The notes beneath the pieces were generated by a model that was not told where the DNA came from, searched no databases, and saw only the letters and a program-made list of their open reading frames with translations. From a virus: a DNA stretch of 34,047 bases. The stretch covers positions 1 to 34,047 of the IMG/VR virus record IMGVR_UViG_3300035695_000234; one strand, written 5' to 3'. Both the position numbers and the translations under genes were made by a program. Positions 10,760-26,119 of this stretch are shown piece after piece; the first letter of the stretch is position 1; each line of letters begins with the position of its first letter.

Positions 10760-13231
10760 ATGGCTGATAACACGGTAAAAATCGGAATCGGGATTGACGT
10801 CAACGAGTTGAAAGACGATCTGTCACAGGTGGAATCGCTTTTTCGCGAATCCACCGGCACCGTTGCCGAATTGTGGGCAGATGCCGGCGAGAAGATCACG
10901 GAAGCTCTGGGCAAAGTTCTTTCGCAGGCCACATCGACCGGGCAGCAGTCCGCAGCACAGATGAATGGCGCTGCTTCGTCTGTGGCTTCGTTCGCCGAAG
11001 GGGCCGCCGCCAGGCTCAATGTCTACCTGCAGGTCGCGCTCCTGGTCATCCAGGCGGCTAAGGACATCTGGGAAGCACACAAGCGCATGCGCGAAGAGGC
11101 GTTCAACACTGAGCACCAGATGGCACAGTTGGCGCTTTCTTTTGATGGGGAAGCACACTCGCTCGAGATTGCGAACTTGAAGCTCGACGATCAAATATCC
11201 AAGCTTCGGGGCGGCGTCTCGCATAACAGGGTCAAAGAAGCGATTCTTGAAGCCAGGGACGCTGCCGATAAGTTGACCGCTTCCCTCGAAAAAGCATTGG
11301 AAGAAGAGAACAAGGTCCTGGAAAAGAAGGTCATCGGTGGTCTGTTTGAAGAGATCTTCGGCGGCGGCGCGCTGACTGAAGGATTCAAAGAAGTCACGAA
11401 CCAGATGTACGAGTGGCGCGCGGCCCAGGACCAGCTTGCGATGGCAGAGAACAAGCTGCGCGACGCCAAGACAAAGGGGGAGAAAGATGCCGCCCAGCAA
11501 GAGGTGGACACGGCCCGCCGAACGGCCGAGGAAAAGCTGAAAACGTATCGCAAAACGGTGGAAGATGAGCTCAAGGCGGAAGTCGATAAGCTCGAATACT
11601 TCAAGCGACTGAACAAGGCCGGTGGTGCAGGTGTTGGCTTCATTGATGACTATACGCAGCGCGTTGCTTTATTGACAGAATATCTCCATTCGCTGGACCA
11701 GGTTGGCCGCATTGAGAAGGCGCAAAAGGAGAACTCTGAGAAGCGCGAAACCGTTGCGCGCCTGGAAACTAAAAAGGAAGTCGATGCCGAGACTGCGCGT
11801 GACATCGGGCTGGAAAAACAGCTGGCGGAGGAGCGCGAGAAGACTGGCTTGGCTGGCTTGCAAAAGGAGAAGGCGCGCATCAGCGTGATGCGTGAGGATA
11901 CAGAAGCGCAGGTCGATGCGCAGGTCAGGGCTGCAACAGAGTTAGCGCAGAAAGAACGTGACGTCAAAGCCGCGGGATTGAAAGAGCAGAAGGATCTGCT
12001 CGATCAGTGGTGGGCCTCCGTGGACCAGAAAAACGCGCACAACGCCCAGGACTACAACACCCGGACCGAGGTCCTGAACCAGCAGCAACTGCAACTGCAG
12101 AAAAACTTCGAAGCTGAGAGCGAGAAAATCATTCTCGAGGGAGAGAAGAAGAAGACTGATATTCGCGTCAAAGCCTTTGAACGCTTCATCCAGGATCAGG
12201 AAAAGGCCCAGGACAGGTGGTATGCAAAGGAAAAGACCGAACTTGATGGAGAAGCGGAACTCGTGAAGGCAAATGCTTCACGCGGTCTCATCACCGTCCA
12301 GCAGGAGCGCGATCAACTCAAGGCGATATATGACCGCGAACTCGACGACCTGCGGACGAAGATCGAAGCGCAGCTTCGCCTGGAGGACCGTCTCCGCAAG
12401 GCACTTGATGCCAATGGCATGGGGCCGGGTTCCCCCGAATATCAGGCATCGTTGCAGCGCTCTCGCCAGCTTCAGGACGAACTGGATCGCTCCACCGCGC
12501 AATTTAGCAACATCATCTCGCAGCTAGACGTGAAGCTGAAAGGCCTCAGCCTGACTGGCCAGCAGTTCTCGCAAAAGCTTCGCACTGACATGCTGAACAC
12601 CATCAATCAGCTGAAGGTGGCCTGGCAGGGCATGATCCAGCAGATGAACAGCGGGTTCATCAGCAGCTTTAACAAGATGCTGGAAACCGGAAAAGGCTTT
12701 GGCCAGGGCATGATCGAAACCTTTGGCAAGATGGCAGAGAGCCTCATCGACATGTTTCTCAAGATCGCTGTGGAGTGGATTGAAAGCCAGATTCTCATGA
12801 TGGTCTTTGGCAAGACAAAAACCCAGACTGACAGCGACGCCAACGTAGCGAGGGCCCAGTCTTTGGCGGCCGTTGCGGCTGAAGGCGCTTTTGCCTACTA
12901 CTCGGCAATCTTCCCGCCCGCTGCTGCGGCCATGGCCTCTGCTCAGTACGCGCAGGGCTTGCTCTGGGCCGGTCTGGCCGCTTTCGAACTGGGAGGAGTC
13001 GTACCGCAGACCGGCCTCGCCTTGGTGCACAAAGGTGAAACTATATTGCCGGCATCCATGTCAGGGAAAGGCTTCGACGGCGCGATTGGCGGCGGACTTA
13101 CTGTGGTCGTGAACCACTCAGTAAACGCCGTCGACGCCGAATCCTTTCAGCAACACATTCGGCGCCACGGCAACATGATCGGCAACGAAGTGGCGCGCGT
13201 GCTCAAGAAGAGAGGCATTGCAGCCAAGTGA
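10760..13231 (+). CDS. Tail tape measure protein
   Basis: An 823-residue protein that would set tail length and be ejected with the DNA. It is largely helical, with long coiled-coil stretches between about residues 140 and 600, a hydrophobic segment near residues 80-100 (LNVYLQVALLVIQAAKDIWE), and a C-terminal region typical of lambda gpH-like tape measures (ESLIDMFLKIAVEWIESQI, then AFELGGVVPQTGLALVHKGE). The length is short for a siphophage, so the tail should be modest; using the usual one helix pitch per residue it would be of the order of 120 nm, an inference only. The start follows GTGAGGAC. Confidence 0.85.
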   Translation: MADNTVKIGIGIDVNELKDDLSQVESLFRESTGTVAELWADAGEKITEALGKVLSQATSTGQQSAAQMNGAASSVASFAEGAAARLNVYLQVALLVIQAAKDIWEAHKRMREEAFNTEHQMAQLALSFDGEAHSLEIANLKLDDQISKLRGGVSHNRVKEAILEARDAADKLTASLEKALEEENKVLEKKVIGGLFEEIFGGGALTEGFKEVTNQMYEWRAAQDQLAMAENKLRDAKTKGEKDAAQQEVDTARRTAEEKLKTYRKTVEDELKAEVDKLEYFKRLNKAGGAGVGFIDDYTQRVALLTEYLHSLDQVGRIEKAQKENSEKRETVARLETKKEVDAETARDIGLEKQLAEEREKTGLAGLQKEKARISVMREDTEAQVDAQVRAATELAQKERDVKAAGLKEQKDLLDQWWASVDQKNAHNAQDYNTRTEVLNQQQLQLQKNFEAESEKIILEGEKKKTDIRVKAFERFIQDQEKAQDRWYAKEKTELDGEAELVKANASRGLITVQQERDQLKAIYDRELDDLRTKIEAQLRLEDRLRKALDANGMGPGSPEYQASLQRSRQLQDELDRSTAQFSNIISQLDVKLKGLSLTGQQFSQKLRTDMLNTINQLKVAWQGMIQQMNSGFISSFNKMLETGKGFGQGMIETFGKMAESLIDMFLKIAVEWIESQILMMVFGKTKTQTDSDANVARAQSLAAVAAEGAFAYYSAIFPPAAAAMASAQYAQGLLWAGLAAFELGGVVPQTGLALVHKGETILPASMSGKGFDGAIGGGLTVVVNHSVNAVDAESFQQHIRRHGNMIGNEVARVLKKRGIAAK

Positions 13232-15645: not shown

Positions 15646-18600
15646 ATGGGCTTAATGTCAGGCGGCAAAGGCGGCGGTAAGAATGCGCTCGCGGCAAAAC
15701 CCAATTTGCTGAACGCGCTGCGGGTGCAGACCAGTTCGTATGGACAGGTGATCCCAATTGTTTACGGCCAGAACCGGGTCTCGGGACGTCTGCTGTGGAG
15801 CGGCGATTTCGCGGCCATTCCCCATACATCGACGCAAAAAGTCGGTGGTAAGGGATTGGGCTCCGGCGGCGGCAACGCAATTACCAATACTACGTACACG
15901 TATCAAAGTGCCGTGGCGACGGCCCTATGCCTGGGGCCGATCCAGAACATCCATAACGTGTGGGACACCAAAGGGCGGCTGACGCTGCTGACCACATCGG
16001 CACAGTTCACCGTTCCCGTCGGAGGCGGATCGTTTCTTCCGCCGCCCGATGGGCGCATTTTTCATTCCGGCCGCGGCGTGTCGCGCCAGGATGCATTCAG
16101 CCTTCTGGTGAATGATTACGGCTCTGACGGTTCCAGCACGTTCTCCGGCAGTCAGCAGACGCCGATGGGGCTGGTGGGCAGCTCGCCTGGCGCCGGGCAG
16201 TACACGTTGGATACCACGACCGGCCTGCATACTTTTTCCAGTGCAGACGCCAACAAAGTGATGACGATCACCTATGTGTATTCGGTGCCGGACTCAAACT
16301 CCAACGGGCAGCCACAGCAGAAACTTAGCCTGACCTTGTTTACGGGGACACGCCCGCAAACGTCTTGGAGTTACCTGACGTCGCGCCATCCGGGCCAAGA
16401 CCTGGGCTATGGGGGCGTCGCCTATGTTGCGTCGTCGGCCATGGACCTAGGAGAAAGTGGAACGCTGCCGAACCTTTCCTTCGAGGTGCTGGGAATTCTT
16501 CCGTTCAATGCCGGGATTACCGACTGTAATCCTAAAGACGTGATTGCCGACTTGCTCTCCAATCCTTTCTATGGGCTCGGCACAGGATCGCACCGAATTC
16601 AGAGCAGCGGCGGAACCACGTTCTTCAAGTATTACTTGGATCTCGGCCTGGACACGGCCGGTGTGTCCTACCAGGTCAACATAACGGTTACGAACGTGGG
16701 CACGTCGCCTCTCAGCATTAGCACCAATCATGCTGGCGCTGCGACCACAGTGCAGCCGGGTGTCACACAGAATCTGGCGCTGCCGTTTACAGGCACAGGC
16801 GCGGCCGATCTCCAGATTGTTTTTAATACGGTGAATTCGGTTTCCGATTCCCTCAATGTGGTGGCGCGTGACCCTGCGATCATCCGGCTCTCTGACGGAG
16901 TCAACCTGGTGCCTGTGGCCCAGCGCACATTTGCCGGCTGGAATGTCGGCACAGGAGCAGCCGTTACAGTCCAGCCGGAGCAGCAAGTTCGTATGGGAGA
17001 CCTGACGCAATACTCAAACTATTGCGTCGCCAACGGCATTTTCCTGTCACCCGTGCTCGACGCCCAGAAATCCGCCGCGGACTGGATCCAGGAAAGTCTT
17101 GATGTAACGAACTCCGCCGCGGTCTGGAGCGAGGGAATGCTGAAAATCGTTCCCTATGGCGACACCACTGCAGTGGGTAACGGAGCGACTTTCCTGCCCA
17201 GCACTTCGCCGGTCTATGACCTGAGCAGCAATGATTTTCTGTCCCCGATTACGGTGAAGCGACCGTCGATCGCCGATGTGATGAATTCTGTGTCAGTGGA
17301 ATTTCTGAATCGAGCGAACGATTACAACATTGAGATCGCCGAAGACAAAGATGACGCCATGATCGCCGTGTACGGCCTGCGCAAGGCTTCACCGAAGCAG
17401 GCGCACTCCATCACTACCGCCGCGGTGGCCAAGCAGGTGGCAAATTTCCTGCGCAAACGCGAGGTGGAGATTCGGGCAACGTACACCATCACTCTGGGCT
17501 GGCAGTTCAACCTGCTGGAACCTATGGATCTGGTCACGCTGACAGTGCCGGAGCTGGGATACAACAAAAAGCCGGTGCGGATCACCGCGATTCGCGAAAA
17601 CGACAACGGTCAGCTTGAAATTGATGCTGAGGACTTTCCTTTCGGCACGGCGTCACCAACTCTTTATCCGCAGCAGGGACCTGGCGGCTTTGTTCCCCAG
17701 GCCAATGCCGACCCTGGCAACGTGAATACACCGATCGTGTTTGAAGCGCCGTTCCTGATGTCCAAGAGCGGGCAACACGAAATATGGATGGCGGTTTCCG
17801 GCGGGACCTGGGGAAACCTGCTCTTGTACTCCGAGCAGTTTGATAATGCAGTCTGGAGCGATGTTAATACGACGGTAACGGCGAATGCGGCAACCGATCC
17901 CAACGGCGGTGCGGCTGCCGATGCGGTTGCTTACTCCGTGGCCGGCACCGGCGCCTATATCCGGCAAGATGTCACGCCACCGATACCTGTGGCGAACCAG
18001 ACTTTCACTTTCAGTTGCTGGGTGAAAACGCCTTCCGGCACGAATTCAGCAAATCTGTTGATCGAAGACCAAACCGGCGCAGTCATCGTCAATACCGCAT
18101 TCCCGATTACGTCAAACTGGCAGCGATTCTCCGTTACCGGAACCATGGGGCCAGCGGCAACATCCATTCGGGTCTTTGTTTACAACCTTGCTTCAGCCGG
18201 AACGCTGCATTTGTGGGGAGCGCAACTGGAAAACTCCAACACCATGAGCGCGTACACTCTGACCACTTACACAGCTGAAAGAGTGGCCAATCCGAACTGG
18301 GGCGGCTGCCATGTATGGATCAGCCAGGACAATAGCGAATACCAGCAGGTCGGCCAGATCTTTGGACCGTCGCGCATGGGGATAATCACCGGGGTGCCCA
18401 GCAGCCGTTCGAATTTGCTGCTGAATTCAAATGGGTTCAACACTTCGAGTTGGGGAGTGGATGGCAGGTGTACTCTCGCTCAGGGTAATGCTTTCGGACC
18501 GGATACCGCGGGCACATCAGCCAGCACTCTTTCCCGGAATACTTCCACTCTTGCCCATGCCGCAGACCTTCAACAGATCATCAGTGCGAACGCCAACGCC

Positions 18601-20913
18601 AGTCCGTGGACATTTTCGATTTGGGCCCGAACCGCCAGCGGCACACAACCGATTCAACTTCTCCTGGGTGACATTACGACCACGCTTCTAGGCAGCAGCG
18701 GGTTGACGGCGACTACAACATGGCAGCGATTTTCATTCTCTTGCGCTGCGGGCGCTCTGGTAAACTCCGGCAGCATGCTCGGCGGTATTACGATTCTGCC
18801 CACCAGTGGCACAGGGTCGGCAGCCTCGGTGCAGGTTTTCGGCGCTCAACTGGAAAAAACAAGCGGAATGACGCCCTATATTCCGACTACGAGCGCCTCG
18901 GTGACGGTTACCGCCCTCATCAACTCCGGATCAGATCCGGATGTTACAAATTACTTTCCTGTTGACCTTACGCAGAGCGCGGGAGTTCTGCAGTCGGGGA
19001 CCCAGGCGGACGCTGATGTATATCGCACATTGTGTTATGCCGGAGGGGAGTTCATCGCGTTCCAGGGCGTAACGCTGTTGGCCACGAACAGGTACAACGT
19101 CGGGCAGGACTCTGCAGGCAATGTATACGTGCGTCGCGGATTATTCGGCAGTAACGTCACCACGCATGCGGCAGGCGAAAGCTTTACCCGGCTCGACGAC
19201 TCGATTTTCACCTATGTTTACGATCCTTCGTTTGTCGGCAAGACGCTCTACCTGAAATTCACCTCCTTCAACACCAGCGGGTTGATGGAACAGAGCATAG
19301 CCAATGCCACGGCGTACCAGTTCATTGTGACCGGCAAGTTTTGCCAGATGGAAACTGTCTCAAAGAACCTTCTGGCGAACCCAGGATTTGAATACAACGT
19401 TGCTGGGACCCCCATTTCTACCTATCCGGGCATCACCGTCATTGCGAATGGGCAAAGGCTCGGGGACAACTGGACGGTCTGGAACGGTTCGGGATTCGCA
19501 TCTGTCGGTGATCCATATATGACCATGGATCTTGAGACAACCAGCCCGCGCACGGGTGGCCTGGGTGCGCTGCTGTTAAATAAGGCAGGTGCTGTCCTGC
19601 CAAATGACGGACATTTCTATACGCACGGGATCATCAGCGACAAGGTGCGGGTGACACCGGGCGAGAGTTACTGCGTTGGCGGATGGATACGTCTGGTGGT
19701 AGATGGCAGTTTGCCGGCAGGAGTCGGCTTCTCAGGCTCGATTCGGGCAATCGCATACGACGCTTCCGGGGCCGTGATTGCCCAGATGAAGTGGGACTCA
19801 GCCACTGGCGGTGCAGGTTTGGGAAGTGGCAATCCCGATGCCAACTTCATTGGACCGGCAGGCTCGGCGGTATTCAATGGCGGATACTACCTGCAATCGA
19901 CCTATTTCACTCTGCCGACCGCGTTCCCCGGAGCGGCGAACCAGAATAAGCCGGCCTATGTTGCCGTTTGGTGCGTTGGCATTCTCCAGAACACCGGCGC
20001 CTCACCGTGGACGATGTCAGGATTGCAGGTCGACGCTCGATTTGACGACTGCTTCCTCTTTCCACAATGGAGTGCGGCGGGCGACGAAATTGGCAAACAG
20101 GGCTCGATGTCAAACACTTACACCGGCGGCCTGACCTATACCAGTACTACCAACTCCATCACCTGGAGCTGGAACATCACGGCCAGCCGCACAGACAGGG
20201 CCATGAGCGTCAACAGTTACTCCGGGTCGCAAACCATTACCGGCCTGGCTGCGGGTACGAGCTACAATTTTTATCCGTTCATCGATGAAATCAACCAGGT
20301 CGTGACCATGGTGGCGACAGGTGGAACCGGCTCTCCGAGCTGGGCCCATTCCGGAACCGCTGTTGCGTGGGTGCAGGAACAGGCCCGTGGCGACCATTTT
20401 CCGCTTTCCTCCGCTCCGGTAGTCGCGTCCACTACAACTTCCGGCACCGGTGGCGGCTCAGGCGGCGGAACAGGCGGATCGTGCCTGCGCGATGACGTGC
20501 TGGTGCGGGAGAAGAAGAAAGGTGTTATCAAGGTGCGCGACCTCGTTGCGGGTGACTGGGTCAGATGCCCACAAGACCAGGACACTCCAGACGGCTGGGC
20601 CGAAGTCTCTGAAGTGGTGAAGAACGGCGTCAGCCGCGAATGGGTACATACTTCTTTCAACGTTGATGACTGGCTGGCTACTACGCCGGGCCATCCGTTC
20701 ACATTGGAAGATGGGTCCATGAAACGGGCTGCACAGCTCTCTCTGGAAGACGCAGTCCCGTGCACCACAGGTATCACTTATCCCGTCAACCATGCGTTGG
20801 AAATATACTGTTCCCACAAAGTTTCGGTGACGGTCCGAAGCAAGCGGCATGTTTTCTATGCTGGCATGAAATCTCCCTGCATCCTGCAACACAATCTTCA
20901 ACCCTTTAGTTAA
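15646..20913 (+). CDS. Tail-tip/host-specificity protein with carbohydrate-binding-like inserts and a terminal Hint domain
   Basis: A 1755-residue protein. The start is placed at 15646 (GGAG ten bases upstream; the alternative ATG at 15655 gives MSGGKGGG); the longer frame to 15289 overlaps the peptidase gene. The N-terminal part (LRVQTSSYGQVIPIVYGQNR, ILPFNAGITDCNPKDVIADL, SPVLDAQKSAADWIQESLDV) resembles gene-transfer-agent/phage tail-tip proteins that contact the host. Two related jelly-roll-type inserts interrupt the later body, near residues 725-885 (NLLLYSEQFDNAVWSDV ... LWGAQLENS) and 921-1085 (NLLLNSNGFNTSSWGVDG ... VFGAQLEK). A third such domain lies near 1239-1475 (NLLANPGFEYNV). A Gly-rich linker leads to a Hint domain (1613-1750). 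Confidence 0.82.
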   Translation: MGLMSGGKGGGKNALAAKPNLLNALRVQTSSYGQVIPIVYGQNRVSGRLLWSGDFAAIPHTSTQKVGGKGLGSGGGNAITNTTYTYQSAVATALCLGPIQNIHNVWDTKGRLTLLTTSAQFTVPVGGGSFLPPPDGRIFHSGRGVSRQDAFSLLVNDYGSDGSSTFSGSQQTPMGLVGSSPGAGQYTLDTTTGLHTFSSADANKVMTITYVYSVPDSNSNGQPQQKLSLTLFTGTRPQTSWSYLTSRHPGQDLGYGGVAYVASSAMDLGESGTLPNLSFEVLGILPFNAGITDCNPKDVIADLLSNPFYGLGTGSHRIQSSGGTTFFKYYLDLGLDTAGVSYQVNITVTNVGTSPLSISTNHAGAATTVQPGVTQNLALPFTGTGAADLQIVFNTVNSVSDSLNVVARDPAIIRLSDGVNLVPVAQRTFAGWNVGTGAAVTVQPEQQVRMGDLTQYSNYCVANGIFLSPVLDAQKSAADWIQESLDVTNSAAVWSEGMLKIVPYGDTTAVGNGATFLPSTSPVYDLSSNDFLSPITVKRPSIADVMNSVSVEFLNRANDYNIEIAEDKDDAMIAVYGLRKASPKQAHSITTAAVAKQVANFLRKREVEIRATYTITLGWQFNLLEPMDLVTLTVPELGYNKKPVRITAIRENDNGQLEIDAEDFPFGTASPTLYPQQGPGGFVPQANADPGNVNTPIVFEAPFLMSKSGQHEIWMAVSGGTWGNLLLYSEQFDNAVWSDVNTTVTANAATDPNGGAAADAVAYSVAGTGAYIRQDVTPPIPVANQTFTFSCWVKTPSGTNSANLLIEDQTGAVIVNTAFPITSNWQRFSVTGTMGPAATSIRVFVYNLASAGTLHLWGAQLENSNTMSAYTLTTYTAERVANPNWGGCHVWISQDNSEYQQVGQIFGPSRMGIITGVPSSRSNLLLNSNGFNTSSWGVDGRCTLAQGNAFGPDTAGTSASTLSRNTSTLAHAADLQQIISANANASPWTFSIWARTASGTQPIQLLLGDITTTLLGSSGLTATTTWQRFSFSCAAGALVNSGSMLGGITILPTSGTGSAASVQVFGAQLEKTSGMTPYIPTTSASVTVTALINSGSDPDVTNYFPVDLTQSAGVLQSGTQADADVYRTLCYAGGEFIAFQGVTLLATNRYNVGQDSAGNVYVRRGLFGSNVTTHAAGESFTRLDDSIFTYVYDPSFVGKTLYLKFTSFNTSGLMEQSIANATAYQFIVTGKFCQMETVSKNLLANPGFEYNVAGTPISTYPGITVIANGQRLGDNWTVWNGSGFASVGDPYMTMDLETTSPRTGGLGALLLNKAGAVLPNDGHFYTHGIISDKVRVTPGESYCVGGWIRLVVDGSLPAGVGFSGSIRAIAYDASGAVIAQMKWDSATGGAGLGSGNPDANFIGPAGSAVFNGGYYLQSTYFTLPTAFPGAANQNKPAYVAVWCVGILQNTGASPWTMSGLQVDARFDDCFLFPQWSAAGDEIGKQGSMSNTYTGGLTYTSTTNSITWSWNITASRTDRAMSVNSYSGSQTITGLAAGTSYNFYPFIDEINQVVTMVATGGTGSPSWAHSGTAVAWVQEQARGDHFPLSSAPVVASTTTSGTGGGSGGGTGGSCLRDDVLVREKKKGVIKVRDLVAGDWVRCPQDQDTPDGWAEVSEVVKNGVSREWVHTSFNVDDWLATTPGHPFTLEDGSMKRAAQLSLEDAVPCTTGITYPVNHALEIYCSHKVSVTVRSKRHVFYAGMKSPCILQHNLQPFS
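20482..20895 (+). other. Hint (bacterial intein-like) domain at tail-tip C-terminus
   Basis: The last 143 residues of the tail-tip protein have the motif order of a self-splicing or self-cleaving Hint domain. After a Gly/Ser-rich linker comes Cys1613-Leu, then VRDLVAGDWVRC (the block A-like DLxxGD), TTPGHPFTLEDG with the block B Thr1680-x-x-His1683, and near the end RHVFYAGMKSPCILQHN with His1749-Asn1750. The residue after the Asn is Leu, not Cys, Ser or Thr, and only five residues follow. This fits an A-type bacterial intein-like domain better than a splicing intein. No endonuclease domain is inserted. Confidence 0.75.
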
Positions 20914-20975: not shown

Positions 20976-21410
20976 ATGAGAAGACTTTACGTTTTGCCCA
21001 AAGACATCTGGAGCGGCGCAGTACAGACCGGAATGCGGGCCATGCCTGACGGGCCTGAGGAGCCGGTACTGTTGCCGATGGCGCAGCTGTTCCATCCTGC
21101 CATCGGGTCGCATTACATTGACCTGGCTGGCGGGCTGGTCCTGATGATGACCAGCTTTGACCACGACGAGCGTAGCGAAGACCTGTTTCACGCTCATCCT
21201 GCGGTGGCGATCCTGCCGCATCCTTCAGTCGATGGTAACAAGCCGCTCAAAAACCACATTGGTGCTGCGGGATACAAGTTCGCGCAGCACCATCTGGAAG
21301 CCCTAACCGCACATCCCCACCTCGGGATCATCGAGACCGACAGCGTGCTGGACGTGGCGCGCAAAGCGTCGGCGATTCATCCAGAGGTCAAGTTCCGGAA
21401 TGCGCTCTAA
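20976..21410 (+). CDS. Histidine-rich protein of unknown function
   Basis: A 144-residue protein 62 bases past the tail-tip stop. It is unusually rich in histidine (FHPAIGSHYIDLAG, SFDHDERSEDLFHAHPAVAI, FAQHHLEALTAHPHLGI) and has no signal peptide or membrane segment. I do not recognise a family. The start has no obvious ribosome-binding site, so translation may depend on the upstream gene or be weak. The position directly after the Hint-tipped protein suggests a tail accessory or chaperone, but this is only context. Confidence 0.6.
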   Translation: MRRLYVLPKDIWSGAVQTGMRAMPDGPEEPVLLPMAQLFHPAIGSHYIDLAGGLVLMMTSFDHDERSEDLFHAHPAVAILPHPSVDGNKPLKNHIGAAGYKFAQHHLEALTAHPHLGIIETDSVLDVARKASAIHPEVKFRNAL

Positions 21411-21494: not shown

Positions 21495-23603
21495 ATGAAG
21501 AAGCTTGTCTTGTTAGCGATCATGCTGGCGTGCGCGATTCCCCTGAGCGCACAAAATTGGACTACGGTCACCGCTTCAAACATCACTGACCTTAATCAGC
21601 AGAAGCTGGCGACGGGGCAGCTGTGTTTTCTGGCCACCGACCAGAATGACGCGCCCATCAGTTTCAACGTAGGTGGCGGCGGACAAGTGCTCAAGCGGGC
21701 TTTCTGCTCTGCTGTGACCAACGGCACGGCGGCATTATTCACTGTCCCGAATCCGGCAGGCACAACCCCTGCTGGAATCTACTATCGAGTAACTGTGAAG
21801 GACGTGAACTCAGGGCAAGAAGTGTTGCGGTACACCCAGGTGAGCTTCACAGGCGCAACCTTCAACTTTGACAATTATGCCCCCACCAATTTTGGGCAAT
21901 TTGCTCCGCTGACTGGAACTGCCGTGAGCGGGAATTTGAGCGTGAATGGCAATTTGTCGATAACCGGCTCTTTCAGCGGGTCGAATTTTGGCTTGCTCGG
22001 CGTGCAGGGGCTGGGCATCAATGGAGCCACCGCCAACAGCAACGCCGTGAACGGCCCGTCTGGCTGGACTCTCCAGTCGGGTGGAACGAACGAGGTGACG
22101 ATCAATTCTTCGGGCGTCACCATCAATAATCCTTCGTTTATCGGCAACCTGACGCTGCCAGCCACTGGAACGGCGACTTCAGGCAGCAATTTCGGGTCGA
22201 TCACTGAGTCCTGGAATGGATCGTACTGGAATGGAACGTCTGCTGCCGCGGATAACTGGACCGCACAAAGCTTTCTTGCGGCTGGGACAAACCCGAATTC
22301 ATTTCTGATTCTCAACCATAGCGGCTCGCCGGGTTCGTTTGTTCAGGTGAATTCGGCGCTCCAGATCCCGACGACGACTGCGGCGACCTCCGGCAGCAAC
22401 GTAAACTCACCCACGCTGAGCCTGCTGGGCAATTACTGGACTGGCAGTGCGTCGAATGCCGATACCTGGGGGATTCAAGATGTTCTCGGCGCGGGCGCGA
22501 ACCCGCCATCCACGCTGACGCTAACCCATCTCGGAGGATCCACCGGAGCAACCACCGTCGACGTGAGTTCGGTGGGCACGCTCAAGACTGGAGCAATTAA
22601 TGCCGCGGCAAACGCTATCACCGCGGCAACGTTCAAGAGCAACTCGGCAAATGCAGCGGCGTCGGGCCAGATTGAACTCGCTGCGAACGACGCCATAAAG
22701 TTTCGCAACAATGCCAACACGGCGGATGTGAATGCTCTAAGCAAGAGCGCATCAGACGTCATCCAAATTGGAGGCGGGCCAGGAGTGGGTTTGAGCGGGT
22801 CAGCCTCGGGGACAACGGCGATCGTTGCCGCCGCCACCGCTTCCGGAACGCTCACTCTGCCGGCCGCCACGGACACGCTTCTTGGTCGAGCCACCACCGA
22901 CACGCTCAGTAACAAAACAATTGATACAGCCAGCGCCAACGTAATCAAGGTCAATGGCAACACTCTGAGCGCCGCCGCGGGATCTGCGACCGTGAGTATC
23001 CCGGCTGCGACGGACATTCTTCTAGGGCGGGCCACCACCGATACGCTGACGAATAAAAGCATCGACGCAGAAGCCGCTGGAAATACGATCACGCTTCCGT
23101 TTTACGTTCAGATTCCTGCTGCGGGATGCAACAACGCTACGGCAAGTCCGAACTGGGACCTGCCGACAACGAACGCGCCTACTCCAAATTGTCTTACGGG
23201 CACAAATACGCAGCAGGGAACCATGGACTTTGATGACACTGCTGCCCGTACCATGCAGACATCTTTCGCTCTTTCGCCCGGCTGGACTGGAAATGTCGAT
23301 GTGGATATCGACTGGCTGGTTACCGCGGGCGGCGGCTCGAACACCGTGAAGTTTACGGTTGCAACGGCGTGCTCGGCTGCAGCAGCAACTTTTGATCCCG
23401 CTTTCAACGCGGCCAACACGATCACCTCAGGCACCGTGGGCGCCAACAACGCGATGAATGTCACTTCGCAAACCGCGATCACCATGACAGGCTGCGCGGC
23501 GGGAAACGTGCTTCACATCAAGTTTGGCCGCGACAACACGGATACCTCCACCGCCACCGTGAGGGTAGTCAACGTAGCCTTCACGATTCGGAGGTCGATG
23601 TGA
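21495..23603 (+). CDS. Exported fibre-like protein A
   Basis: A 702-residue protein with a Sec signal peptide (MKKLVLLAIMLACAIPLSA, then QNWTT). Residues about 20-150 match the downstream paralogue closely (NWTTVTASNITDLNQQ, GQLCFLATDQND, GIYYRVTVKD, EVLRYTQVSF). A Gly/Ser/Asn-rich middle follows. Then comes a repeated motif, LLGRATTDTLSNKTI and again LLGRATTDTLTNKSI, which is common in phage tail fibres. The last 170 or so residues (from QIPAAGCNNA) are a separate beta-rich domain. CAGGAGC precedes the start. A signal peptide on a tail-fibre-type protein is unusual; it may be exported by the lysogen. Confidence 0.78.
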   Translation: MKKLVLLAIMLACAIPLSAQNWTTVTASNITDLNQQKLATGQLCFLATDQNDAPISFNVGGGGQVLKRAFCSAVTNGTAALFTVPNPAGTTPAGIYYRVTVKDVNSGQEVLRYTQVSFTGATFNFDNYAPTNFGQFAPLTGTAVSGNLSVNGNLSITGSFSGSNFGLLGVQGLGINGATANSNAVNGPSGWTLQSGGTNEVTINSSGVTINNPSFIGNLTLPATGTATSGSNFGSITESWNGSYWNGTSAAADNWTAQSFLAAGTNPNSFLILNHSGSPGSFVQVNSALQIPTTTAATSGSNVNSPTLSLLGNYWTGSASNADTWGIQDVLGAGANPPSTLTLTHLGGSTGATTVDVSSVGTLKTGAINAAANAITAATFKSNSANAAASGQIELAANDAIKFRNNANTADVNALSKSASDVIQIGGGPGVGLSGSASGTTAIVAAATASGTLTLPAATDTLLGRATTDTLSNKTIDTASANVIKVNGNTLSAAAGSATVSIPAATDILLGRATTDTLTNKSIDAEAAGNTITLPFYVQIPAAGCNNATASPNWDLPTTNAPTPNCLTGTNTQQGTMDFDDTAARTMQTSFALSPGWTGNVDVDIDWLVTAGGGSNTVKFTVATACSAAAATFDPAFNAANTITSGTVGANNAMNVTSQTAITMTGCAAGNVLHIKFGRDNTDTSTATVRVVNVAFTIRRSM

Positions 23604-24265
23604 GGAGACGCAGGTACGCTGCCATTCTCTTTCTTCTGGCGATGATTGCGCTGGCCTTCGCCAACACGGCCGGCCCGAACATCGCAGGAACGGGAGGAAC
23701 ATCGGGAACATGTAATGGATCGACCACTTTTTGCTGGACCAGTCCAGGCAACATTACTGCGAACGACGGCGTAAACGCGCAAGTGGTCCTGGGCGCAAGC
23801 GGCGCCTCCAATGAGTTGCAAGGCACGAATTTCGGTTTTGCGATTCCGACCGGGTCCACCATCAACGGCATCACCGTGGAGATCAAGAAGCAGGCGGTCA
23901 GCGGCATCGGCAATCCCACAGACGTGGACGTAACCATCCTAAAGGGCGGCGTTGCCACTGGTACCAACCTGGGGCACACGGGAGCAGGCAACGGATGGCT
24001 GTCAGCCGGTGGCATTGACACATACGGCGGCGGTTCCACGCTCTGGGGAACAACGTGGGCCCCGGCCGACATCAACGCCACAAACTTTGGCGTGCAGATC
24101 AGTTGCGTGGAATGGACAGGCGGCGCACCGAGCACGGCGGGCGTGGATTTCATCCGCATCACCATCACCTTCACTCCGCCGGCGGCGCCACCCGCCGGTG
24201 GCAAACATCGCGTGATTGAAACGCAGGTCCGTGATGGCCGGCCAGAGTTGCGGTTGCCGGCCTAG
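23600..24265 (+). CDS. Secreted beta-rich protein
   Basis: A 221-residue protein beginning with GTG at 23600, overlapping the stop of fibre-like protein A, with GGAGG upstream. MRRRRYAAILFLLAMIALAF and likely cleavage after AFA form a clear signal peptide. The mature part is beta-rich with several Gly- and Thr-rich stretches (FAIPTGSTINGITVEIKKQA, GVDFIRITITFTP), resembling extracellular beta-sandwich proteins. The coupling to gene A suggests that the two products are made in fixed proportion and may act together. The C-terminal tail (RVIETQVRDGRPELRLPA) is Pro- and Arg-containing. No specific family recognised. Confidence 0.72.
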   Translation: MRRRRYAAILFLLAMIALAFANTAGPNIAGTGGTSGTCNGSTTFCWTSPGNITANDGVNAQVVLGASGASNELQGTNFGFAIPTGSTINGITVEIKKQAVSGIGNPTDVDVTILKGGVATGTNLGHTGAGNGWLSAGGIDTYGGGSTLWGTTWAPADINATNFGVQISCVEWTGGAPSTAGVDFIRITITFTPPAAPPAGGKHRVIETQVRDGRPELRLPA

Positions 24266-24352: not shown

Positions 24353-26119
24353 ATGAAAAAGTCTTTCATGATCGGTCTTTGCTGTTTATGGGGAGCGCAG
24401 CTTTTCCTGGCAATCAACGCCCAGGCACAGAACTGGACCACCGTAACGGCCACTAACATTACTGATCTCAACCAGCAGAGGCTGGCAGCCGGACAGTTGT
24501 GCTTCATAGCCACCGACCAGAATGACAATCCCATCAGCACCGGCGTTGGCGGCGGCGGACAGCTCTTGCGACGTCAATATTGTTCGCAAGTCACGGCAGG
24601 CGCCCTGCCGACGGCGTTCACCGTTCCCAATCCCGCCACCACGCAGCCCGCCGGAGTCTACTATCGCGTCACGGTGAAGGACTCTTCCACCGGGCAGGAA
24701 GTGCTGCGGTACACGCAGGTCAGCTTTTCCGGAACCAGCTTTAATTTTGATACCTATGCGCCGCTGAACCTCGGCACACCGGCGCCGCTTTCCGGCAATG
24801 CGGTCACGGGAAACCTGAGCGTCGCGGGAAACCTGTCGGCTACCGGAACCGTGACGGCGTCCAACATACCGGCCAGCATTCCAGGGATTGGCAGTTGCAC
24901 CAATCAATTTGTTCGAGCGCTAAATCTGGCGGCGGCCCCAACGTGCAGCACGGTTGGCTCATCCGATCTGGCCGCTTCTCTGGCCCTGACCACGCCCAAT
25001 CTTGGAGCTGCCACCGCAACAACTATTTCCGCAACCGGCGTCCTTGCGAGCTCAGGAGCAACAGGGTTGCCCACAGGCGGAGGGGCAGCCACGTATCTCT
25101 TCAGCCAGAACTCCACGCCGCACGGCGGTGCGCTGATTGTTGGCGACGGCTCAGGCTGGCAGTTTGACTTTCTGAAACGGACGGCGAGCACGAACACGGT
25201 GCTTGCTTCGCTCAAAGACAGCGGCGCGCTGACGTTCGGAGCGTCTTCCGATGCCGGTCTTTCCCGTACCGCCGCAGGCACGGTCGCCGCGGGAAACGGC
25301 ACGGCCGGAGACGTAAGCGGCAACTTCAAAGCCGCGCAGATTCAGATTCCCACGGCGGCAAATACGCTGACCGCATTCATTTTCAACGACGGAGCAGGCG
25401 GGCTTACGGCACAAAGCAGCAGCGGCCAGCAAGTCCGGCTGACCGATGCCACGGGAAATCTTTATATATCGCAGCCGGGGAAATCCATTCTGTTCTTTGG
25501 CGGGACGTCGGGCAGCACCAGCGTGAGCGCGTCGGCTGTGGCGTCAGGGGCGCTCACGCTGCCAGCGGCCACCGATACGCTGGTAGGTAAGGCCACAACC
25601 GACACGCTGACGAATAAGACCCTGATTTCGCCAGCGATTTCAACCATCAGCAACACTGGCACTCTCACTCTGCCAACGTCAACAGATACCCTGGTCGGCC
25701 GGGCCACCACTGACACTCTAACCAACAAGAACCTAATCTCTCCTCAATTCAACGGCATCACAATTTCGGAAGCTCCTGTTATGACGTGGAGCACATTCGT
25801 CCCAGGTAATTTGACGATCATTACCGGTGTCTCTCAAATCACCATCCCCAAGGGGATTACCATTCTTAGATTTGAGTCAATCACTTACGCCAACGCTCCA
25901 GCAGGATGTACTACAAATGCTGTTCTAAACATTGCTGATATGACGAACACAAGTACTTTGACGACCTTGACTCAAAGCGCTCAAGTTTCAGATAGTGGTC
26001 CTCTTTTGATTAATGCGTCCGCAGGCCATGTTCTAAGGGTGGGAGTTTCAACTGCCGCCTCAGGCTGTACCACAACTCCGCAAAATGCAATGGTCGAAGT
26101 TCAATACCGAATGCAGTGA
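24353..26119 (+). CDS. Exported fibre-like protein B (paralogue of A)
   Basis: A 588-residue protein with a signal peptide (MKKSFMIGLCCLWGAQLFLA, cleavage probably after AQA) and the same N-terminal module as protein A (NWTTVTATNITDLNQQRLAA, CFIATDQNDNPIS, VLRYTQVSFSGTSFNFD). It has the fibre motif twice (LVGKATTDTLTNKTL and LVGRATTDTLTNKNL). The final 120 or so residues, after about nucleotide 25735, are unrelated to those of protein A and look more A/T-rich, as if a different tip had been exchanged in. GGAG precedes the start. It looks like a duplicated fibre gene with a variable tip. Confidence 0.78.
   Translation: MKKSFMIGLCCLWGAQLFLAINAQAQNWTTVTATNITDLNQQRLAAGQLCFIATDQNDNPISTGVGGGGQLLRRQYCSQVTAGALPTAFTVPNPATTQPAGVYYRVTVKDSSTGQEVLRYTQVSFSGTSFNFDTYAPLNLGTPAPLSGNAVTGNLSVAGNLSATGTVTASNIPASIPGIGSCTNQFVRALNLAAAPTCSTVGSSDLAASLALTTPNLGAATATTISATGVLASSGATGLPTGGGAATYLFSQNSTPHGGALIVGDGSGWQFDFLKRTASTNTVLASLKDSGALTFGASSDAGLSRTAAGTVAAGNGTAGDVSGNFKAAQIQIPTAANTLTAFIFNDGAGGLTAQSSSGQQVRLTDATGNLYISQPGKSILFFGGTSGSTSVSASAVASGALTLPAATDTLVGKATTDTLTNKTLISPAISTISNTGTLTLPTSTDTLVGRATTDTLTNKNLISPQFNGITISEAPVMTWSTFVPGNLTIITGVSQITIPKGITILRFESITYANAPAGCTTNAVLNIADMTNTSTLTTLTQSAQVSDSGPLLINASAGHVLRVGVSTAASGCTTTPQNAMVEVQYRMQ

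Follow-up and report, generated by a model that had tools for sequence, protein, structure and literature searches.

Introduction

Does the tail-tip protein of a phage end in a domain that processes itself, and what would such a domain do at the part of the particle that meets the host? In the papers that we consulted, phage inteins lie in terminases, ribonucleotide reductase and helicases, and we found no description in the open-access literature of a Hint domain in a tail-tip protein. Bacterial intein-like domains (BILs) have no nucleophile at the +1 position; those of type A keep the terminal His-Asn, mostly cleave, and can splice via the freed amine (PMC4031507, PMC7664689, PMC7765530). 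The known type A BILs occur where non-conserved bacterial proteins are hypervariable (PMC7765530), and HINT is reported never to have been found with T6SS or PVC systems (PMC3482391). A conserved domain of the self-processing type at the host-contact end of a phage, accompanied by an uncharacterised partner gene, would provide a concrete case for BIL-type function, and the presence of such a Hint and partner cassette in tails points to a route, so far unstudied, by which the host-contact part of the phage may be matured or coupled.

Results

Genomic context of the tail-tip gene

The whole stretch of DNA analysed here, called the window, is an IMG/VR virus record of 34,047 bp. Its gene set includes a portal, a head-maturation protease, a head-tail adaptor, a tail tape measure, tail assembly genes and an integrase. 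The association of portal, head and tail genes with an integrase therefore indicates a tailed phage with a temperate life cycle. The tail-tip gene (15646..20913, + strand) encodes a protein of 1,755 aa that resembles GTA-megatron and phrog_1101 proteins; its start was taken as the ATG at 15646, from which the numbering of Cys1613 and Asn1750 follows. The protein matches phrog_1101 with an E-value of 5.5e-108 and the NCBIfam models GTA_spike_fiber (3.2e-46) and GTA_megatron (4.7e-29, below the cut-off of that model). It contains a Phage-tail_3 domain (PF13550; 17062..17592, + strand; Pfam 3.3e-23), which corresponds to residues 592-768 of the long ORF.

Catalytic residues of the C-terminal domain

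The original prediction placed Cys1613, a Thr-x-x-His block and a terminal His-Asn at the end of this protein, and both its coordinates and its residue numbers proved exact. The predicted domain, a Hint of the type A BIL-like kind, runs from Cys1613 to Asn1750 (20482..20895, + strand) and measures 138 residues from Cys1 to Asn. Cys1613 (20482..20484), equivalent to intein Cys1, is the predicted nucleophile of an N-S acyl shift. The tetrapeptide Thr-Pro-Gly-His (TPGH; 20683..20694) represents the TxxH of block B and aligns with TPDH of GyrB inteins, whereas block F is represented by the His of HVFYAG (20848..20850) and block G by His1749-Asn1750 (20890..20895), all on the + strand. These six catalytic residues (Cys1, Thr, His, block-F His, penultimate His and Asn) are identical in 17/17 Hint members, among which identity to the window Hint falls to 28%.

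The surroundings of the domain also agree with what had been predicted. A Gly-rich linker, SGTGGGSGGGTGGS (20440..20481, + strand), precedes Cys1613, and this region is Gly-rich in all relatives. On the other side, Asn1750 is followed by Leu and by five residues in all, LQPFS (20896..20910, + strand), directly after which comes the stop codon (20911-20913). A short tail is present in every relative (LQPFS, LMPES, FQPLS, VNKIPVS, YTFSS/YNFSS/YTFNS). Its first residue, the +1 residue, is Leu in two members, Phe in one, Val in one and Tyr in 13, and never Ser, Thr or Cys. The dN/dS ratio in the Hint is about 0.06 (0.056 between the window and L021, a rough value because dS is high), close to that of the tail body (0.047), and shows purifying selection on the Hint domain.

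Homology to inteins and intein-like domains

From the window alone the identity of the domain was only modestly supported. Its match to Pfam Vint (E 8.5e-5, 22.8 bits) lies below the curated cut-off of 27, NCBIfam intein models did not match the window tail-tip protein, and a phmmer search of the PDB with the single Hint domain returned chance matches to nanobodies only. The question was settled by the relatives, since their profiles match inteins and 2lwy. A profile built from four Hint sequences and searched against 396 Acidobacteriota genomes retrieved the GyrA and GyrB inteins, with which it was aligned by hhalign at 96.9%, Cys1 on Cys1 and TPGH on TPDH. In the PDB, a 17-member profile matched best to the bacterial intein-like domain 2lwy (E 1.4e-7); the match extends from close to the start of the Hint up to the final HN and covers almost all of it. 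Moreover, members of the family match six Pfam models of the Hint clan (Hint, Vint, Intein_splicing, PT-HINT, Hint_2 and Hom_end_hint). These significant matches to Hint models, whose absence would have counted against the original prediction, confirm that the tail-tip C-terminus is a genuine Hint domain. Its fold is predicted from sequence, AlphaFold2 models of the Hint made with 2 and 4 sequences having a pLDDT of 34.

The bacterial intein-like kind that had been proposed was likewise upheld, with His-Asn kept and the +1 nucleophile absent across the family and 2lwy as best match. Like this type A BIL, the tail-tip Hint has a C-terminal His-Asn, no +1 nucleophile, a length of about 135-140 aa and no room for an endonuclease. 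Known type A BILs, however, lie in variable bacterial proteins, whereas the Hint described here forms the end of a phage tail-tip protein, is followed across the family by only 5-7 residues, and is accompanied by an fn3-like module and a partner. With class 1 inteins (GyrA, GyrB) it shares Cys1 and TxxH in register and the His-Asn at the end, but we rejected a canonical class 1 intein: the +1 residue is Leu and not Ser, Thr or Cys, the five residues after Asn are no real C-extein, and a homing endonuclease gave no Pfam match in the window Hint. Hedgehog Hog and Vint domains are also C-terminal Hint domains on larger proteins, and weak Pfam Vint and Hint matches exist, but the tail-tip Hint keeps His-Asn; a Hog reading was discarded as well, nothing that could be a sterol-recognition region being present after LQPFS. 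The PT-HINT domains are processing Hint domains in large bacterial proteins, and some members show a weak Pfam match to them; a pretoxin was nevertheless dismissed, because the stop directly follows LQPFS and a toxin domain is absent.

A cassette found in unrelated tail proteins

Close homologues of the tail protein that carry the Hint were found in L004 (77% in the Hint), in L021 (84%), which comes from a Terriglobia MAG, and in L020 (48-49%). Other close homologues do not carry it (L007, L008, L010, L012 and L013), most of them stopping after Gly-rich ends; in L003 the region ahead of the Hint is the same as in the window and the contig then ends. The tail C-terminus differs between related phages, but the Hint cassette as such is phage-borne and conserved. 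L013, whose similarity to the tail body is 60%, has the fn3 module without the Hint and ends in GLGGTLRKV (..TTTTGLGGTLRKV), close to the position at which the processed tail-tip protein would be expected to end.

A second Hint type was found in L111, which comes from the same MAG as L021 and is prophage-like, having genes for an integrase, a portal and a capsid. Using the L111 Hint as query, we retrieved many Terriglobia genomes encoding a protein of about 345 aa that ends in a Hint. These proteins belong to prophage loci that we call podovirus-like from their gene order, in which a gene for a large virion protein (phrog_3287) precedes them and an endolysin-like gene follows. Their N-terminal parts do not resemble the window tail body. 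By contrast, the region ahead of the Hint in the window (20092..20475, + strand), comprising a module that we named fn3-like by eye and the linker, is homologous to that of 16 podovirus-type proteins (hhalign 99.7%, E 3.4e-26). As this module is shared by otherwise unrelated tail proteins, it makes up a single cassette together with the Gly linker, the Hint and the short tail; the cassette boundaries were set by alignment and by eye. By sequence comparison, siphophages and podovirus-like prophages of Acidobacteria have this cassette on tail proteins that are otherwise unrelated. Searches of 50,697 phage records by tblastn with the Hint and with the partner gave nothing convincing.

The podovirus-like locus that combines Hint and partner, represented by L130, L142 and further Terriglobia loci, occurs in roughly 17 of 398 Terriglobia genomes, and it might be a partly domesticated element. 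The second, divergent type of C-terminal Hint is carried by different tail-like proteins, in L111 (8368-10452, HN-PILPRS) and in L140 (7457-11371, HN-YPILPC), where it belongs to a 1,187-aa tail protein. A third type ends a 402-aa ORF with a long Gly run in L163 (1267-2472; G476:C77), which has HN-KLMLL at its end; the first-type partner was not found in this locus.

The partner gene

Directly 3' of the tail-tip gene lies a gene of 144 aa (20976..21410, + strand) that co-occurs with the Hint. Searches of Pfam, PHROGs and the PDB gave no match, and it could not be assigned to a known family. Relatives of this partner follow the Hint in L004, L020 and L021, and a partner follows it in all 13 podovirus-type genome loci examined. 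A profile search of 398 Terriglobia genomes detected the Hint in 19 and the partner in 18, all of them among the 19; in each of these the partner lies 3' of the Hint in the same orientation, separated from it by 37 to 2,834 bp. The two genes are thus linked (hypergeometric 3e-30), although this count ignores relatedness and overstates independence, because many of the 18 genomes share one related prophage type. The sole Hint genome without a partner, G476, has a more distant Hint type. Among new IMG/VR loci the partner adjoins the Hint in 5/6, the remaining one (L190) having the Hint alone. The coupling is not strict, since L190 lacks the partner and L013 has a partner without a Hint. In L013, about 570 bp without clear coding (11502-12069) separate the Hint-less tail gene from the partner gene; this gap is about the size of a lost Hint, and no Hint remnant was seen in it.

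Siphophage and podovirus partners probably represent one family, judging from an hhalign comparison (P 7e-5, probability 63%) and from their position. L111 and L140 each have a small downstream gene of their own, and these two genes are homologues (32%, 1e-15); their inclusion in the family of the window partner was unsupported (hhalign P 0.05). Met1, one Tyr, one His and one Pro are the only invariant residues among 17 partners, and neither a conserved Cys nor a conserved N-terminal nucleophile was found.

Internal Hint domains in proteobacterial tail proteins

Six proteobacterial megatron-like relatives of the tail protein contain an internal BIL-like Hint of 135-136 aa in the N-terminal Gly-rich loop (L042 2508-4874; L067 6937-9795; L068 578-3409; L070 8038-8934; L072 8236-11097; L094 4887-7721). 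Their junctions read GGKGGG(S/A)G ahead of the Cys and GGG (GGGSK) after the HN, with Gly at +1 and a single open frame; Acinetobacter relatives without the interruption read SGGKGGSSKT at this site. Five of the six frames continue into the remaining tail protein, the one of L070 being cut by the locus end, and splicing is therefore the simplest reading. Nucleophile-less splicing is likely for these internal domains, and their occurrence supports the view that a Hint without a +1 nucleophile can be accommodated where tail proteins are Gly-rich. Such splicing at Gly-rich loops would be of use in protein engineering too. The original prediction held that domains of this kind cleave and do not splice. 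Its likening to BILs stands, but the restriction to cleavage was too strong: type A BILs can splice, and the internal-Hint tail proteins seem to need it.

Discussion

A self-processing tail-tip precursor

What might the domain do? From the comparisons above we infer its chemistry, the products and the role of the partner. The explanation that we favour, and consider probable, is that the tail-tip protein is a self-processing precursor and that the partner is part of the same system. The Hint would most likely remove itself, by cleavage or by nucleophile-less splicing, and a working like that of type A BILs is suggested because the +1 nucleophile is absent and His-Asn is kept, the marks given in the reviews. 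The protein would be synthesised as a precursor in which the Hint and its five-residue tail occupy the last 143 residues. Once the precursor is folded, Cys1613 would attack the preceding Ser-Cys bond (N-S acyl shift), placing the C-terminus of the tail tip on a thioester, and Asn1750 would cyclise with the assistance of His1749 and release the LQPFS tail. Since His-Asn and the short tail are preserved, this C-terminal step would also be under selection. The thioester could then be resolved by water, giving a mature Gly-rich end; alternatively, the freed amine of LQPFS could attack it, so that the Hint would be spliced out and Gly-linker-LQPFS left, as in type A BILs. Both predicted products resemble Hint-less related tail proteins that end Gly-rich, such as that of L013. 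The partner would most likely be a chaperone or a trigger for the C-terminal cassette, a role that we rank above that of acyl acceptor because the partner has no conserved Cys.

Alternative explanations

In tail spikes, C-terminal chaperone domains of the Peptidase_S74 type are removed from the phage tail protein by autocleavage. The Hint could similarly be a folding or assembly domain that removes itself, its chemistry serving for removal only, with the partner acting as a Tfa-like assembly factor. We hold this reading as a tentative possibility; it is a special case of the favoured explanation, and the confidences that we attach to the readings overlap. Its C-terminal position on tail proteins, the downstream partner gene, placed as fibre-assembly genes are, and the presence of a partner with the fn3 module alone in L013 all fit. 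However, the Peptidase_S74-type domains belong to another family with another chemistry and no sequence match to the tail-tip Hint, PHROG and PDB searches detected no similarity of the partner to known assembly proteins, and Hint-less relatives evidently fold without it. The same two genes could serve in acyl transfer, the thioester of the tail tip being passed to the partner or to a virion or cell-surface protein in a covalent, Hedgehog-like adduct; attachment to a virion or surface protein was the idea of the original prediction. Such chemistry is available to every Hint thioester, a small gene nearly always lies 3' of the Hint, and the mature end would be flexible and Gly-rich; we nevertheless think it unlikely, given the 17 partners without a suitable conserved nucleophile, the retention of a His-Asn and short tail needless for simple N-terminal transfer, and the partner without a Hint in L013. 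We are as doubtful about a phage-specific combination of maturation and conjugation, in which the partner would receive or direct the acyl group of the Hint-made thioester, an adaptor would become covalently fixed to the tip during assembly, and the two-gene cassette would spread between unrelated phages.

Two further readings would deny the domain a processing role for the phage. That it is a selfish or decaying intein relic of no use to the phage agrees with its patchy distribution, with the absence of a C-terminal extein of any size, and with broken copies in two of the 19 genomes (a frameshift in G579 and an in-frame stop in G701). Even so, we regard a relic as quite improbable, for an endonuclease is absent, the catalytic residues and the short tail are strictly kept at a dN/dS of 0.06, and the domain is tightly linked to a second gene. 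Least probable of all would be a catalytically dead Hint fold with a purely structural role, against which stands the invariance of Cys1, TxxH, the block-F His and His-Asn in all 17 members despite identities as low as 28%.

Fibre-like genes 3' of the tail tip

Three fibre-like genes of the window (21495-23603, 23600-24265 and 24353-26119) encode typical N-terminal Sec signal peptides, for example MKKLVLLAIMLACAIPLSAQNW. Fibre-like genes with Sec signals are also located 3' of the tail tip in L004, L007, L008, L010, L012, L013, L020 and L021. Sec signal peptides are odd for virion proteins, and their presence on fibre-like genes is conserved across the Acidobacteria phages compared.
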